Positions 11,845 to 37,017 of a stretch of DNA of 37,017 nucleotides are shown in pieces. Made by a program: the position numbers and the translations under genes. Positions within the stretch are counted from its first letter, which is position 1; every line of letters begins with the position of its first letter. The notes under the pieces are model-generated. The model ran no database searches and was not told the origin of the DNA. It saw only the letters and a list, made by a program, of their open reading frames with translations. The stretch is from Nitriliruptoraceae bacterium (GTDB lineage: Bacteria > Actinomycetota > Nitriliruptoria > Nitriliruptorales > Nitriliruptoraceae): NCBI GenBank assembly GCA_007134165.1, contig SLLJ01000360.1:1-37017 (forward strand), in the 5' to 3' direction.

Positions 11845-11926
11845 GCTCCCGTCCGGCTGCTCGTCCTGGCGCAGCCGGAAGCTCACCCGAAGCCGACCCG
11901 AAGGGTGGGCTGGCAACCTGTCGGGC

Positions 11927-12133
11927 ATGGACAGCTACCTCGTACGGATCTGGCGGCCCGCCGGGGCGACCACGGACGACGACCTACGCGGCGTCGTGAC
12001 CGACCTGGCGACCCGCACCACCACCACCTTCCCCGACCAGTCGGCACTGCTGCGTGTGCTGCAGACCCCGCACGTCGGGTCCCACGGCGAGCGCACCGAC
12101 CCACCCGAGCCGGTCACGGAGGTCGGTCCGTGA
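11927..12133 (+). CDS. Small conserved-looking protein (68 aa), translationally coupled to the downstream SARP regulator
   Basis: MDSYLVRIWRPAGATTDDDLRGVVTDLATRTTTTFPDQSALLRVLQTPH...; stop overlaps GTG 12130 of the next gene (GTGA). Confidence 0.6.
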   Translation: MDSYLVRIWRPAGATTDDDLRGVVTDLATRTTTTFPDQSALLRVLQTPHVGSHGERTDPPEPVTEVGP

Positions 12134-15030
12134 CACTGGTCGCGCTGCCGACACCGCCGGACACCGACCCGGATACCGGCCCGGTGACGCTGACGGTGCT
12201 CGGCAGCCTCGAGCTCCGCGTCGAAGGACGGGACCGCACACCCGCGGCCGCCAAACCACGGCAGCTGCTGACCACCCTCGGACTGCACCACAGAACGCCG
12301 CTGTGTGTGGACGTGCTCATCGACGAGCTCTGGGAGCGCCCACCGCGAACGGCGCGCAACGTCGTGCAGTCCTATGTCTCCCGGCTGCGTGCGGTGCTGC
12401 GCGACACCAGTGCGCACGTCATCGGCGGACCCGACGGCTACCTGCTCGACCTTCCGGCGCAAGCGATCGACGCCGCACACTTCGTCGCCGGCGCGCGGGC
12501 CGCCATGGACGCCGGGGAGCCAACCACCCGCAGCCGCCTGCTCGACGAGGCGCTGCGGCGGTGGCCAGACCAGCCACCGACCAAACTCCCGCTCGGTCCG
12601 CGGGCCCAGCGCGCCCTGGACACGCTGCTCGAGCAGCGCACCGACCTCGAAGAGGAGCGTGCCTGGGTGGCCGCTCGACTCGGTGACCACCAGCGGGCGG
12701 TGGTGCTGCTGCAGCGGCTGGTCGATACCGATCCGTTGCGCGAGCAGGCCTGGTGCCGGCTGATCGAAGCGCTCCAGCACAGCGGCCGCGACGCCGAGGC
12801 GCTGCGAGCCTACGAGCAGCTGCGCTGCGTGCTGCGCGACGAACTCGGCGTGTCCCCCGGCGATCGGGCGCAGGCGCTGCACGCACGCCTGCTACAGCGC
12901 GATCGCCACACCGGCTCCGCACTCGACCCGCCGAGCGGCTCGCCGCCGGCGATCAGGACCCGGCCGGCCATCCCCCTGGTTGGTCGGGACACCGAGCGAG
13001 CACAGCTGCGTGGCCTGCTGCGCAGCACCCCGCTCGTCACGCTGACCGGGCCGACGGGGGTGGGAAAGAGCTCGCTCGCCCTCGACCTGGTCGCGGACGC
13101 CGTGCCGGGGGTGGTCGGGGTGGCCGAGCTGTCCGACTGCCGCACGCACGAGCAGGTGGTGTCCGCGATCCGGGCAGCGATCGTGCCCGGGCTGCCGGTG
13201 GACGCCCGGCTCGACGACCTGGTGCGCGCCCTGACTGATCTCACCGGACTGCTGGTGATCGACGGCTGCGAGGTTGCGCTCGACGCCGTCGCCGCCGTGG
13301 TCGACCGGCTGATCCAGACCCCGGCCGGACCGCGGGTGCTGGCCACGAGCCTCGAGCCCCTGTGGCTCCGGGGCGAGCACCGGGTCGCACTTGGACCCCT
13401 GGCCGTCCCGCCAGCTGCGGCTGGCACCGACGCGATCCTCGCCACGCCATCGGTACGTCTGCTCGTCGACCGAGCCCGGGCTGCCGGCTTCACCGCCCCG
13501 ATCGACCATGGCGTGGCCACGGAGTTGGCCACCATCGCCCGAGCACTCGACGGACATCCGCTCTGCCTGGAGCTCGCCGCCGGGCGACTGGCCGCCCTGC
13601 CGCCCCACCGCGTCGCCACGAGGCTGCGCGATCCGCTTGCCCTGCTCGACCGCGGGAGCCGGGGCGGCCCGGACCGTCACCGGACGCTACAGGCGGCGAT
13701 CGCGGCCAACCTCCGACTGCTGCACCGATCCGAACAGCGGCTGCTGTCCCGGCTCGCCGTGTTCTGCTCGCCGGCCTCCGCCGAGGACCTCCACGCAGTC
13801 GCCGCACTGCCCGGCCTGGACCTCGAGGCCACCGAGGATGCCCTGGACCGGTTGGTCGCGACCTCGCTGGTGCAGCCCCACGAGGGCCGGTTCACGATGC
13901 TCAGCTCGGTGCGAGGCGCTGCCCGCCGAGGACTGGACGAGGACCCGGACCGCGACCAGGTGCTCGCCGCGCACACCTGCTGGGTGCTCGGACAGGTACG
14001 TGGCGCGGAGCCGGGACTGCGTGGCCACGCACGCCGGCGGTGGTGGCAGCGGCTGACCGATCGCAGCTCCGACGTTCACGCCGCCATCGACCGGGCGATC
14101 GAGGCCGGCGAGGTCCCCGCCGCGGTCCAGCTGGCGCAATCCATGTGGTGGTTCTGGTACCTGCGCGGCGAACTGCGTGACGGCCACGACCGGCTCCGTC
14201 GGATCCTCGCGCTCCCGGCTGCGTCGGAGCATCCGACCGTCGGTCGAATCCGGGTCTACGCCGCCTGCTTCCGGGTGCTGCTCGGGGACCGTACGACCGG
14301 CGGCGCCGAAGCCGCCCACGCCGGTGCCCGACAGCGTGCCGTCGGGGATGTCCGCACCGCCGGCGAGGCGAGCAGCGTGGTCGCGCTGGCTGCCCTGCAG
14401 GAAGGTGATCTGCCTATGGCGCGGCGCTTCGCCGATGAGGCGCTCACGCTCCACCGCGCCGACGACGACCCCTGGTGTGTGGCCGCAGCCGGGCTACTGG
14501 CCGCCACGCTCCGGCTCATCGCCGGGGACGCCGCCGGCGCAGCCCCGTTGGCCGCCGAGAGCCTGCAAGGGTTCGCGCGGCTCGGCGACCTGCATGGCGT
14601 CGCCGATGCCGCCCAACTGCGCGCCGATCTGGCGCGGCGGGGCGGCGCACTCACCGAAGCCGCCGGCTGGTTGGCCACCGCCTTCGATGCTGCACGCGAG
14701 GCCGACCATGCCGCGGGCGTGGCCGCCACGACCCTCCGACTGGCGCGCCTGCGCCTGCATCTGGGCGATTCCGACGAGGCGGTGCGCACCCTGGGAGCCG
14801 CCCGGCTCCTCCAGCGACGCAGCGCCACCACCGACCTCGGACTGCTGGCCGAGGCGGATGCCGCCATCATCGCCGCCACCGAGGCCGAACTCGGTCCGGC
14901 CTGCGTCGAGCGTCTGCTCGGGCAGGGAGCGGGCCGGGATCCGACCGAACTGTTCGCGCCACTGGCACGGGCCATGACGGTCCACGGGCAACCGACCCGG
15001 CAACGGCATCGCGATCCCGTGGCCAACTGA
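12130..15030 (+). CDS. SARP/AfsR-family regulator: N-terminal winged helix + BTAD, central STAND ATPase, C-terminal TPR-like
   Basis: VTLTVLGSLELRVEGRDRTPAAAKPRQLLTTLGLHHRTPLCVDVLIDELWERPPRTARNVVQSYVSRLRAVLRD (SARP winged helix), GRDAEALRAYEQLRCVLRDELGVSPGDRAQALHARLL (BTAD), LVTLTGPTGVGKSSLALDLVADAV (P-loop). Confidence 0.88.
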   Translation: MTLVALPTPPDTDPDTGPVTLTVLGSLELRVEGRDRTPAAAKPRQLLTTLGLHHRTPLCVDVLIDELWERPPRTARNVVQSYVSRLRAVLRDTSAHVIGGPDGYLLDLPAQAIDAAHFVAGARAAMDAGEPTTRSRLLDEALRRWPDQPPTKLPLGPRAQRALDTLLEQRTDLEEERAWVAARLGDHQRAVVLLQRLVDTDPLREQAWCRLIEALQHSGRDAEALRAYEQLRCVLRDELGVSPGDRAQALHARLLQRDRHTGSALDPPSGSPPAIRTRPAIPLVGRDTERAQLRGLLRSTPLVTLTGPTGVGKSSLALDLVADAVPGVVGVAELSDCRTHEQVVSAIRAAIVPGLPVDARLDDLVRALTDLTGLLVIDGCEVALDAVAAVVDRLIQTPAGPRVLATSLEPLWLRGEHRVALGPLAVPPAAAGTDAILATPSVRLLVDRARAAGFTAPIDHGVATELATIARALDGHPLCLELAAGRLAALPPHRVATRLRDPLALLDRGSRGGPDRHRTLQAAIAANLRLLHRSEQRLLSRLAVFCSPASAEDLHAVAALPGLDLEATEDALDRLVATSLVQPHEGRFTMLSSVRGAARRGLDEDPDRDQVLAAHTCWVLGQVRGAEPGLRGHARRRWWQRLTDRSSDVHAAIDRAIEAGEVPAAVQLAQSMWWFWYLRGELRDGHDRLRRILALPAASEHPTVGRIRVYAACFRVLLGDRTTGGAEAAHAGARQRAVGDVRTAGEASSVVALAALQEGDLPMARRFADEALTLHRADDDPWCVAAAGLLAATLRLIAGDAAGAAPLAAESLQGFARLGDLHGVADAAQLRADLARRGGALTEAAGWLATAFDAAREADHAAGVAATTLRLARLRLHLGDSDEAVRTLGAARLLQRRSATTDLGLLAEADAAIIAATEAELGPACVERLLGQGAGRDPTELFAPLARAMTVHGQPTRQRHRDPVAN

Positions 15031-15155: not shown

Positions 15156-15205
15156 GTTGTGTCCTGCATTTCGAGGCCCCGGGGCCTCGAAATGCAGGAC
15201 ACAAC
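15156..15205. terminator. Perfect 50-bp palindrome (25-bp arms, no loop) at a convergent gene junction; candidate bidirectional terminator or repetitive palindromic element
   Basis: gttgtgtcctgcatttcgaggcccc|ggggcctcgaaatgcaggacacaac; arms are exact reverse complements. Confidence 0.75.
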
Positions 15206-15230: not shown

Positions 15231-17168
15231 CTACTCGACGAAGCCTCCCAGATCATCGAGGTCGGACCCGATCGTCGGGTCGATCCCGTCCTCGTCGTCG
15301 TCGACTCCCAGGGCGTCGTGGCCGCCGCCGGCGCCGTCCAGCGCCGTGAGCTGACCCTCGATCGAAGCCGCCAGCTCCGGGGCAGCCGACCCCGGACCGC
15401 CGATGTCGGGTCCGGGCCCACCGACGGGGGCGTCCTCGTCCTCGTCGCTGCCGGGTGCTCCGGTGCCGAACCCGCCCGGGGGCGGTGCGGCCCCTCCCCC
15501 GGCGGCCTGCAGCGCCACGTTGTCCAGGCTGTGCTCGTCGGGGACGGCGATCGCCTCGTCATCGAGCGCCGGCGTGGTCTGACCTCCGGGTCCCTGGTTC
15601 TCGACCGCCATGCGCATCAGCCGCAGTGTTTCCGCGCCCATCGGGGAGAGCAGGAACTCGTGGAGCGCCTGCTCGCTTCCGAGGTCCACCTCGATCAGTC
15701 CACCACCGATCTGCTGCTCGAGTCCCCGGATCATCACCTCGCGCTCGGCGGCGAAGGCCGGGTTGGTCAGCAGGGCCTCGACGGCCTGCTCGTGGTCCAC
15801 GTGGTGGTCCGCTGGGGAGGGCATGCCCTCGTCCCCGGCTTCGCCCTCGTCCCCCGCGGCGGAGTCGGCGGCGTCAGGCACCTCGTCCTCGGCCTCGGGG
15901 TCCTCGTCACCGCCCCCGTCGTCGTCATCGTCGTCGTCATCGTCTTCGCCGTCGTCGCTGCCGTCGGACGACGACGATCCCGAGGTGCGGTGATCCTCGG
16001 ACGGCGTCGACGAGCTCTGGGTGTCCTGGACCTCTCCCTGCTGGTACGTCTTGGTCGAGCCGTCCGTGAAGGTGACGATGACCGAGTCACCGGTGACCTC
16101 GACGGACTCGATGTCGGCGAGATGGTGGGAGGGATCGTTGATGAGGTCGCGGGCGATCTCCTTGGCGACCTCCGTGGGCAGCGCGTCGTGGGCGAGCCCG
16201 AGTGCCGCGTTGGCCGTCGCCTGGTTGGCGTCCACGTCGGTCCCGGCAGGGACCGTGCTCAGGGCCTCCCCCTTCTCGGATCCGAAGGTGGCCTTGTGGA
16301 AGGTGAGGTTGCCCTGGGCGTCCTCGGTGACGGTTCCCCCCATCATCTCGTAGTCGTCGGCGGCCTGCTGCGCGGAGCGCGAGGGCATGGTGTCGACGTG
16401 GTCGTAGCCACCGAGCTCGGCCCGAGTTGCCTGCTCGACCGCGCCGACAAGCTGCTGGTCGTTCATGCCGGCGGTGTCGATGCCGAACCCGTTGGCGTAG
16501 TCGTGCAGCCACTGTCGGATCTCGCCGTCGCTCATGCCTGCGGCCAGCTGGTCCTTGACGCCGCCGGGGACGGCCTCACCGAGCGTCAGACCGTGGTCGA
16601 CCAGCGAGTCGGCGTCGAAGTCGTCCGGGTCGAAGCTGGTCGGTGGCCCGCGGGCGGCGTCGACCGCGGTCACGTCGTGCGAGGACGCAAGCCGCGGGTG
16701 GTCGTCGGCCGAGTCGGACTGCCGGTCGCCCGCATCCAGGTCGGCCGCGTCGGCCTGCCGGTGGTCCGCCCCCTCGTCGGTCGTCCGTTCGAAGCTCCCG
16801 GTCTCCTCCTCGACCTTCTCCCACCTCGCGGCGCCGTCGTCCTCGTCCGCGCCCACGACGATGAGCCCGTGGTCCGCGTCCTCGACGTCGACGACGGCTG
16901 CCTCCTCGGGTTCCTCGACGACTCGGACGGCTGCCCCCTCGGGCTCCTCGATGAAGCGGGCAGGTGCTACCTCGGAGTCCTCGCCCCCAAGCTCGGAATC
17001 GACGCGTGCGGTGGGCTCCGACGACTCGTCGGATGCATCCTCGGCCTCGACGTCGGTCTCCTCCTCGCGTGTGGTACGCACCGGCGACTCGTCGGACGCG
17101 TCGGCGTCCTCCCGCCGGTCACGGTCCTCGCGCTCGGCGGCGGTGTCTCTCGGGTCACGGTCGGTCAC
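15231..17168 (-). CDS. Highly acidic, low-complexity orphan protein (645 aa) encoded downstream of the Hsp70-like gene
   Basis: GTG start, G-rich RBS-like stretch, 60 bp gap to the Hsp70 gene. D/E-rich N- and C-terminal parts and a DGEDDDDDDDDDGGGDED tract. Two ordered-looking segments: MSDGEIRQWLHDYANGFGIDTAGMNDQQLVGAVEQATRAELGG...VEVTGDSVIVTFTDGSTKTYQQGEV and EQAVEALLTNPAFAAEREVMIRGLEQQIGGGLIEVDLGSEQALHEFLLSPMGAETLRLMRMAVENQ. Confidence 0.7.
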   Translation of the reverse strand: MTDRDPRDTAAEREDRDRREDADASDESPVRTTREEETDVEAEDASDESSEPTARVDSELGGEDSEVAPARFIEEPEGAAVRVVEEPEEAAVVDVEDADHGLIVVGADEDDGAARWEKVEEETGSFERTTDEGADHRQADAADLDAGDRQSDSADDHPRLASSHDVTAVDAARGPPTSFDPDDFDADSLVDHGLTLGEAVPGGVKDQLAAGMSDGEIRQWLHDYANGFGIDTAGMNDQQLVGAVEQATRAELGGYDHVDTMPSRSAQQAADDYEMMGGTVTEDAQGNLTFHKATFGSEKGEALSTVPAGTDVDANQATANAALGLAHDALPTEVAKEIARDLINDPSHHLADIESVEVTGDSVIVTFTDGSTKTYQQGEVQDTQSSSTPSEDHRTSGSSSSDGSDDGEDDDDDDDDDGGGDEDPEAEDEVPDAADSAAGDEGEAGDEGMPSPADHHVDHEQAVEALLTNPAFAAEREVMIRGLEQQIGGGLIEVDLGSEQALHEFLLSPMGAETLRLMRMAVENQGPGGQTTPALDDEAIAVPDEHSLDNVALQAAGGGAAPPPGGFGTGAPGSDEDEDAPVGGPGPDIGGPGSAAPELAASIEGQLTALDGAGGGHDALGVDDDEDGIDPTIGSDLDDLGGFVE

Positions 17169-17228: not shown

Positions 17229-19208
17229 TCAGGGCAGGTCCCAGCAGGTGCCGGACTCGGCGATGACGGAGTGGTCGGGGTTGGCCACCAGCACGCACAG
17301 CTGCTCGGCTCCGGCGGGGCGGTCCCCCACTCCGTACCCGGTGAACGGACTGCCCTCCCCGTACACGAACCAGGGCCCCGATCCCGGCACACCGGCCTGT
17401 TCGGCGGGGATGGTGTCGAAGAAGAAGTGCACGTGCATTCCCGGCAGGGCGGGGTCGAACTCGTAGGTGGTGAAGTCGACCACGTAGGTATCGCCATCCA
17501 GCGCGATCTGGTCGATGGTCGCGAAGTCCACACCGGGTGGTACGACGAACTCCGGTTCCGGCTCGGGCTCGGGTTCCGGCTCGGGCTCGGGTTCCGGCTC
17601 GGGCTCGGGTTCCGGCTCGGGCTCGGGTTCCGGCTCGGGTTCCGGCTCGGGCTCGGGTTCCGGCTCGGGCTCCACCGACTGCTCGATCGCCGCGACGGGC
17701 TCGGCCGAATCTTCGTCGCCACCTCCGCCGAACACCAGCCAGCCACCACCGAGCAGCACCACGGCTGCGGCGATCCCTCCAGCCACCGGCACCCATCGCG
17801 GGCGCCCTGAGGCCGGTTCGGGTTGCGAGGGCGGGTCACCCGGGCCACCGGCCCCAGCGCCCTGCCGGTCCCACGGCGCGGTTGCCTCCAGGGCGGGGGG
17901 GGAAGCGGGCGACGCCGCATCGGTCGGTGTGGGCGTAGCCGGAAGCATGGCATCGGAGCCGGTCGCAACCGGGCCGGCGGGGACCGGCGGAAGGTCGGGC
18001 TCCGATCTCCGTGGCGGCACGGGGGCGACCACCACCGGCGGAGCCGTCGGCGAGGGAGAGGACGACTCCGGCGCGGCCGCCGGCGCCGCCACCGCGACCG
18101 GTACCTCCTCGGGGGAGGTCTCGGCCGTTCGTGTGGCCTGCAGCGCGGCTGCGTGCCCCGCCCCGAGCGCGATCGCGTGTTTGGGGTGCGCATCGACCGC
18201 GATTGGCCGGCCGAAGGCATCCGACACAAGCTCGGCGACCAGGGGGATGCGAGAGGAGCCGCCTACCAGCAGCACCGCGGAGATTTCGTCGGGACCGACC
18301 TTCGCGGTACCCAGGGCCCGGCGCATCGCCGCGACCGTCTCGGTGAGGGGCGGCCGGATGAGCTGCTCGAACTCGCCGCGAGTCAGACGGACCTCCGTCT
18401 GCACGGACGGTAGCAGCACCGGAATGGAGGCCTCGGTGTCGGTGGACAGCGCCTCCTTGGTCTCCACGCACTCCTGACGCAACCGCGCGAGCGAGCTGAT
18501 CGTGGTCGGGTCGTCGAGATCGAGCCCGTCCAGCGCGCCGGCCAGTGCTCGGCGCACGTGGGCGAGGACCGCCTCGTCGAGGTCGATGCCCCCGAGCCGT
18601 TCGATGCCCTCGGGTTCGCCGAGGATGTCGAAACCGTCGACGGTCTTGCGCAGCACCGCCGCGTCGAAGGTTCCACCCCCCAGGTCGTAGACCGCGATCA
18701 ACGCCCCGACCTCCACCCGCTCGTTGGCGGCATACGAGATCGCCGCCGCCTGCGGCTCGGTGAGCGTGACCGCCGCCGGCAGGTCTGCCATCCGGATCGC
18801 CTGACGGAGCAGGTCCTGCTTGTAGGGACCCCAGTTCGCCGGGTGGGTCACCGCGATCTGGCCGGCTGGGCCGCCCTCGAGCTCGGCGACCTTGTCAACG
18901 ACCCACCGCAGCAGCTTGGAGGTGAGCGCCTCGGCGGAGTACGGCGAACCACCGAGCAGTAGTGGCGTAGGATCGCCCACCCGCCGCTTGAACTCACGGG
19001 CGATGCGTCCGGGCTCGGTCGCCGCGCGGCGCTGTGCGGTCTCCCCCGTCAGGATGGTCTCGTCTGGCCGCAGGTAGATCACCGACGGGATCGCTGCGGA
19101 GCGATTGCCCAGCCCGACGACCTCCACACGGTCGCCGCGGGCGATGGCTGCTGCCGTGTAGGTGGTGCCCAGGTCGATGCCGAGGTGGTAGGCGCCGTTG
19201 CTGGTCAT
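17229..19208 (-). CDS. Membrane-anchored Hsp70/DnaK-like protein: Hsp70 nucleotide-binding domain, Pro/Ala-rich linker, single TM, (EP)n spacer, extracytoplasmic C-terminal domain
   Basis: [16 protein letters not shown] (phosphate 1), [16 protein letters not shown] (phosphate 2), [18 protein letters not shown] (adenosine). Then [27 protein letters not shown] (TM), (EP)~20, and [107 protein letters not shown]. Start 19208 preceded by GAGGA; 19220 is an alternative. Confidence 0.92.
17551..17673 (-). repeat. 18-bp-type tandem repeat encoding the (Glu-Pro)n spacer of the Hsp70-like protein
   Basis: Repeated ggctcgggctcgggttcc units on the + strand, encoding EPEPEP on the coding strand. Confidence 0.95.
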
Positions 19209-19231
19209 TTGAGTCCTCATCCTGGAATCGT

Positions 19232-36854: not shown

Positions 36855-37017
36855 TCTCGTGTCCGGCCAGCAGTCGGCCCTTGCACCGGGCGTCGTGCGG
36901 CTCCCAACGTCGAGCTTCAGCACTGCACGCCTACACCGAGGTGGCTGGTGGGTCCGCGTTAGGTGGGGCCTTGATCCGACCCGACCTGCTCACCCGTCGG
37001 CGTCTCTCGACGTTGCC

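Follow-up and report, generated by a model that had tools for sequence, protein, structure and literature searches.

A perfect 50-bp palindrome between convergent genes of a soda-lake Nitriliruptoraceae genome as a probable copy of a REP-like dispersed repeat

The window analyzed in this work is the whole stretch of 37,017 nucleotides of contig SLLJ01000360.1 (assembly GCA_007134165.1), which belongs to a draft MAG of the family Nitriliruptoraceae. At positions 15156–15205 it carries an exact, loop-less palindrome of 25+25 bp, located between the gene for an AfsR/SARP-like regulator and an oppositely oriented ORF for an acidic low-complexity protein, whose stops lie 125 and 25 bp from the palindrome, respectively (Table 1). 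The coordinates and the symmetry, which we have recomputed, agree with a preliminary description of this DNA, and the other features which it had reported for the setting are likewise reproduced, viz. the convergent junction (the ORF stops at 15030 and 15231 face the palindrome), a composition richer in AT than the surroundings (60% GC vs. 73–75% in the flanks) and the missing U-tract (no T-run on either side). Such palindromes are expected by chance from base composition at 3.6e-9 per window; the second-best near-perfect inverted repeat of the window has a 15-bp arm and a 9-bp loop, and no other palindromes scoring at least 18 bp per arm were found in the ~1.06 Mb sampled from the other contigs of the genome and from three related genera. 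Directly upstream of the acidic ORF, and on the same strand, lies an ORF (17229–19220, reverse strand) for an HSP70-domain protein whose long linker is made of EPEPEP repeats and whose C-terminal domain lacks an assigned family. The contig end carries an M-box (magnesium) riboswitch (36895–37017 of the window, reverse strand; 51.9 bits, 5' end cut).

Table 1. Features of the palindrome locus and gene contexts of the copies for which both neighbors are readable.
Feature	Position or copy	Strand	Remark
Palindrome left arm, GTTGTGTCCTGCATTTCGAGGCCCC	15156..15180	+	25 bp
Palindrome right arm	15181..15205	-	Exact reverse complement of left arm, no spacer
22-bp family-level core arms	15156-15177 and 15184-15205		Flanking the variable 6-bp tip
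Upstream convergent ORF, AfsR/SARP-like regulator (BTAD, AAA_16, TPR)	11905..15030	+	Predicted start
Opposing convergent ORF, acidic low-complexity protein	15231..17168	-	No Pfam match
Convergent copy	Window		BTAD regulator vs. acidic ORF
Convergent copy	C234		Membrane protein towards methyltransferase-like ORF (read by eye), stop 5 bp away
Convergent copy	C262		HTH protein towards aspartyl-tRNA synthetase
Divergent copy	C383		Phosphatase and flavin monooxygenase
Divergent copy	C421		Zinc-binding-like ORF and GMC oxidoreductase
Divergent copy	C493		MazE-like antitoxin and PurF
Co-directional copies	C238, C328, C432a		

Our analyses have identified 13 intact copies of this element in the draft genome, each a 50-bp unit consisting of GTTGTGTCCTGCAnTTCGAGGC, a 6-bp tip and the mirror of the arm, together with a copy truncated at a contig end and a decayed one located 63 bp from an intact copy. 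A search of the window's own draft genome with the 22-bp arm GTTGTGTCCTGCAnTTCGAGGC, allowing up to 3 mismatches, gave 13 forward and 12 reverse matches, and a control motif with the letters reversed gave none; each arm has its mirror partner at a fixed offset of 28 bp, the exception being the arm cut by the contig end. The intact copies are found on contigs C90 (the window), C234, C238, C262, C328, C365, C383, C421, C432 (two), C492, and C493, and the thirteenth is a third copy at the C432 locus, 42 bp past the contig end, which is visible only in a near-identical contig of the MAG G019. A covariance model of 16 aligned copies recovers intact, cut and decayed copies alike. The aligned copies (n = 16) share identical, sharp 50-bp boundaries, and they are intergenic according to our ORF analysis. 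By eye, the 30-bp flanks have nothing obvious in common, and in 18 printed flank pairs no direct repeat borders the 50 bp, so that the flanking duplications which the preliminary description had suggested looking for were not seen. A search of five contigs (viz. the window, C432, C492, C262, and C493) gave no Rfam match above the gathering score at their palindromes. Because the genomes are incomplete (~85% for the window's own genome and 61% for the sister species considered below) and many copies are found at the ends of contigs or close to them, all copy counts are minima. The element is multi-copy, which excludes the case of a single, isolated palindrome. One palindrome lies at the 5' end of an ORF (L062:5195-5932, reverse strand) that matches only the C-terminal part of an amidase and is a possible gene remnant.

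Among 35 genomes of the family, the motif is present only in the window's own genome (G000), in a sister species of the same genus (G001; 3 intact copies and one arm ending contig C398) and in a single contig, C95, of G019, a MAG placed in a different genus. C95 is the sole motif-bearing contig of G019 and it is 99.65% identical to C432 of G000 over all 5,784 bp of C432; it is therefore misbinned or recently transferred. The stretch shared by C432 (L066) and C95 (L071) carries S-layer-homology proteins, and further along C95 there is a DUF5615 toxin-like gene. When 84,980 species genomes were scanned for the exact arm, two records proved palindromic, and both are MAGs of the Nitriliruptoraceae that belong to sets from the sediments of soda lakes (with CSSed names; cf. 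PMC6146748). The 12 matches outside the Nitriliruptoraceae and one viral match were set aside as chance, as they are lone arms without a mirror arm, and plasmids and phages yielded chance matches only. A weak covariance-model match in G017 (E 0.003) was left uncounted, since the hairpin there is another one, located shortly before a gene start. The element is restricted to one soda-lake actinobacterial genus, apart from the one near-identical contig in the bin of another genus.

The sister species retains the palindrome at orthologous sites in four places (viz. C492a, C492b, C328, and C421, the counterpart of the last sitting at a contig end), and the lack of conservation, which the preliminary description had named among its refuting conditions, is thereby excluded. 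All four of its known copies have counterparts in G000, and most copies are therefore old and vertically inherited. The copies C492a and C391b are both located after the citrate synthase gene and the copies C328 and C510 both upstream of a lipoprotein-like gene, in the same place in the two species, and the arms of these orthologues are identical at 40/44 and 41/44 positions, respectively; the intergenic DNA around C492a hardly aligns between the two species. The differences between orthologues include compensatory ones, viz. A:T vs. G:C at pair 13/38 and T:A vs. C:G at pair 5/46. Only the locus of C234 lacks the palindrome in the sister species (G001:C17), its intergenic region there having diverged and being of another length, and the two genomes offer no case of an insertion matched by a clear empty site. 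A different hairpin (GACCGACCG..CGGTCGG; L105:1679-1750) is found at C17 between the same two genes. The positions shared by the two species are as compatible with a conserved functional site as with an old repeat.

The distribution of substitutions over the 16 copies is strongly graded, from 1.8% at the stem base (12 bp per arm) through 8.8% in the inner stem (6.3% without the free N pair) to 27% in the 6-bp tip. Paired cells make up 96.6% of the 16-copy alignment vs. 33–40% in shifted registers, two-sided changes occur at 4 pairs, and pair 14/37 is seen as G:C, T:A, and C:G and is paired in every copy. The covariation score was reached by none of 500 shuffles, a test of limited weight because the copies are related, and for pairing the comparison of orthologues with the sister species is more telling. 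Between C492b, which is cut by a contig end, and its counterpart C391a in the sister species, the difference is an exact inversion of the 6-bp tip together with one repaired pair. Template switching between the arms of inverted repeats homogenizes the arms and inverts the spacer (PMC8604942), and it can maintain perfect stems (PMC8794818). We have not retained it as the established cause of the tip inversion, because C391a resembles the neighboring copy C492a in its right half and right flank and inter-copy exchange fits equally well. The earlier suggestion that the perfect symmetry reflects selection or gene-conversion homogenization is thus borne out insofar as the arms co-vary, and the paired changes fit selection on the hairpin and/or mutational homogenization alike, the two causes being indistinguishable here.

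Both neighboring genes are readable for nine copies, of which three are convergent, three divergent and three co-directional (Table 1). The calls of gene starts rest on a simple score of third-position GC, and the distances from copies to gene starts are for this reason approximate. The neighboring genes have no function in common. Genes of toxin-antitoxin type are seen near several palindromes, viz. an Xre/RES pair, a MazE-like antitoxin and DUF5615 (L064:2795-3714; L070:866-1102; L071:7278-8023). A 23-bp hairpin is predicted for the RNA of both strands (z about -6.4 and -6.8), and the predicted folding energy of the isolated 50-bp unit is -44.7 kcal/mol either way.

A bidirectional terminator was among the roles first proposed for the palindrome. 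According to this proposal, the copies would form a family of intrinsic terminators whose GC-rich stem halts RNA polymerase both ways without a U-tract, and it is consistent with the strong RNA hairpin predicted in either direction, the placement of the window, C234 and C262 copies between convergent genes, the location of C492a 27 bp past the stop codon of the citrate synthase gene, the presence of another hairpin in place of the palindrome between the same two genes at the C234 locus of the sister species, and the termination by hairpin clusters that is reported in PMC8355165. However, C383, C421, and C493 lie between divergent gene starts and other copies are co-directional, so that with only 3/9 readable copies convergent and 3/9 divergent there is no enrichment at convergent ends, where the preliminary description had suggested looking for them, and a specificity for convergent junctions was rejected. 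Moreover, no T-run accompanies the window copy and no U-tract was found in the 30-bp flanks of the other copies, a conserved stem sequence is not needed for termination, and hairpins elsewhere in the family score only 14–17 bp arms with no common sequence. A dedicated terminator role is not supported and we regard a terminator family as unlikely, while termination or the protection of mRNA ends by the window copy is possible as a by-product of its predicted fold.

Recognition of the two conserved half-sites GTTGTGTCCTGC by a DNA-binding protein specific to the genus, for which the palindrome would be a binding site (an operator or a nucleoid/segregation mark), would account for the strongest conservation being in the outer 12 bp of the arms (1.8% substitutions) and for the retention of orthologous loci, among ~15 intergenic copies per genome, while the flanking intergenic DNA has diverged. 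This proposal is nonetheless doubtful, as a continuous 50-bp palindrome is much longer than the usual dimer sites, the neighboring genes are without common function, and pair 14/37, variable yet always paired, is better explained by a structural or homogenization constraint than by base readout. Comparably doubtful is a putative conserved, genus-specific chromosomal mark, in which protein or RNA-level machinery would recognize the 50-bp palindromes, and for that reason arms and positions would persist at orthologous loci amid diverged intergenic DNA and pairing would be kept by compensatory change. The exact, sharply bounded 25-bp arms, the dispersed copies and the conserved arm base could also be read as those of a MITE formed by two IS terminal inverted repeats placed head to head, but neither genome contains a widely spaced arm pair, and hence a full-length element, every arm having its partner 28 bp on save those cut by contig ends; with no target duplications seen in the inspected flanks and only single chance arms in other genomes, phages and plasmids, we have rejected this very improbable origin. 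The position of several copies at contig ends or close to them might be expected of an assembly fold-back, an artefact which the preliminary description had kept in view. However, the same 50 bp, differently flanked, recurs on many contigs of two separately assembled species, mostly fully spanned and at orthologous positions, and the C432 copies recur in another MAG; because of these independent copies a local fold-back can be ruled out with near certainty.

The most probable interpretation, to which we assign a probability of roughly 0.6, is that the palindrome of the window represents one copy of a dispersed, genus-restricted, intergenic, REP-like 50-bp palindromic repeat. Of the three options first put forward (viz. 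terminator, REP/MITE-like element and protein-binding site), the REP/MITE-like one is the best supported by a family that is dispersed, intergenic and multi-copy and that includes one decayed copy; against a REP-like reading stand the lack of an identified mobilizer and a number of copies (~15) far below that of classical REPs. The family would have spread in the ancestor of the genus through a copying route and would now be mostly inherited vertically, its arms being kept symmetric by hairpin-templated repair or template switching, by inter-copy exchange, by selection on the hairpin, or by a mix of these. For copies in transcribed 3' regions, as may apply to both strands at the window locus, the transcripts would form the 23-bp hairpin, with protection of mRNA ends or help in termination as possible side effects. 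These observations are of interest as the repeat family that they describe is clean and almost perfectly symmetric and belongs to a deep actinobacterial lineage, the Nitriliruptoria, for which our literature searches found no REP-type repeats, and the pairs of orthologous copies in two species provide a natural test of hairpin selection vs. template-switch homogenization. They also caution against taking every conspicuous palindrome between convergent genes for a terminator.

In comparison with known systems, our searches of the literature on Nitriliruptor palindromes and on actinobacterial RAYT repeats found nothing relevant. A Y1_Tnp/RAYT transposase (PF01797) gave no match at E <= 0.001 in the window's own ~85%-complete genome, in a search whose positive controls match in 5/14 genomes, and the unpaired GTAG/CGTC end tag is absent, the ends GTTG...CAAC being fully paired and the flanks without a common tag; a RAYT-mobilized REP was rejected on these grounds. 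Integron attC sites end in RYYYAAC...GTTRRRY, and an assignment to attC was rejected as the palindrome ends in GTT...AAC. Classical REPs are short, intergenic, dispersed, palindromic sequences, often near gene ends, that are species- or genus-specific and give rise to RNA hairpins (PMC3733652). The present family is likewise short, intergenic, dispersed and lineage-specific and can form RNA hairpins, but it differs in its length (50 bp vs. 20–40 bp), in being perfect and loop-less, in its copy number (a minimum of ~15 vs. >100; PMC2817692) and in showing no bias to the 3' ends of genes. The bidirectional intrinsic terminators resemble it at the window locus, where a long GC-rich hairpin lies between convergent genes and is formed on both strands, whereas the family as a whole lacks a U-tract, is conserved in sequence and also occurs between divergent genes. 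With the stem-loop sequence families of bacterial genomes that are catalogued in PMC2267715, it shares the character of repeated intergenic hairpin-forming sequences without a known function, and its nearly perfect symmetry may set it apart from them. The quasi-palindromes homogenized by template switching (PMC8794818; PMC8604942) are similar in their paired arms with two-sided changes, to which one orthologue pair adds an inverted tip, although here the inversion may equally reflect exchange between neighboring copies. On the basis of these comparisons, we have filed the palindromes among the small, dispersed palindromic repeats, as a new family.
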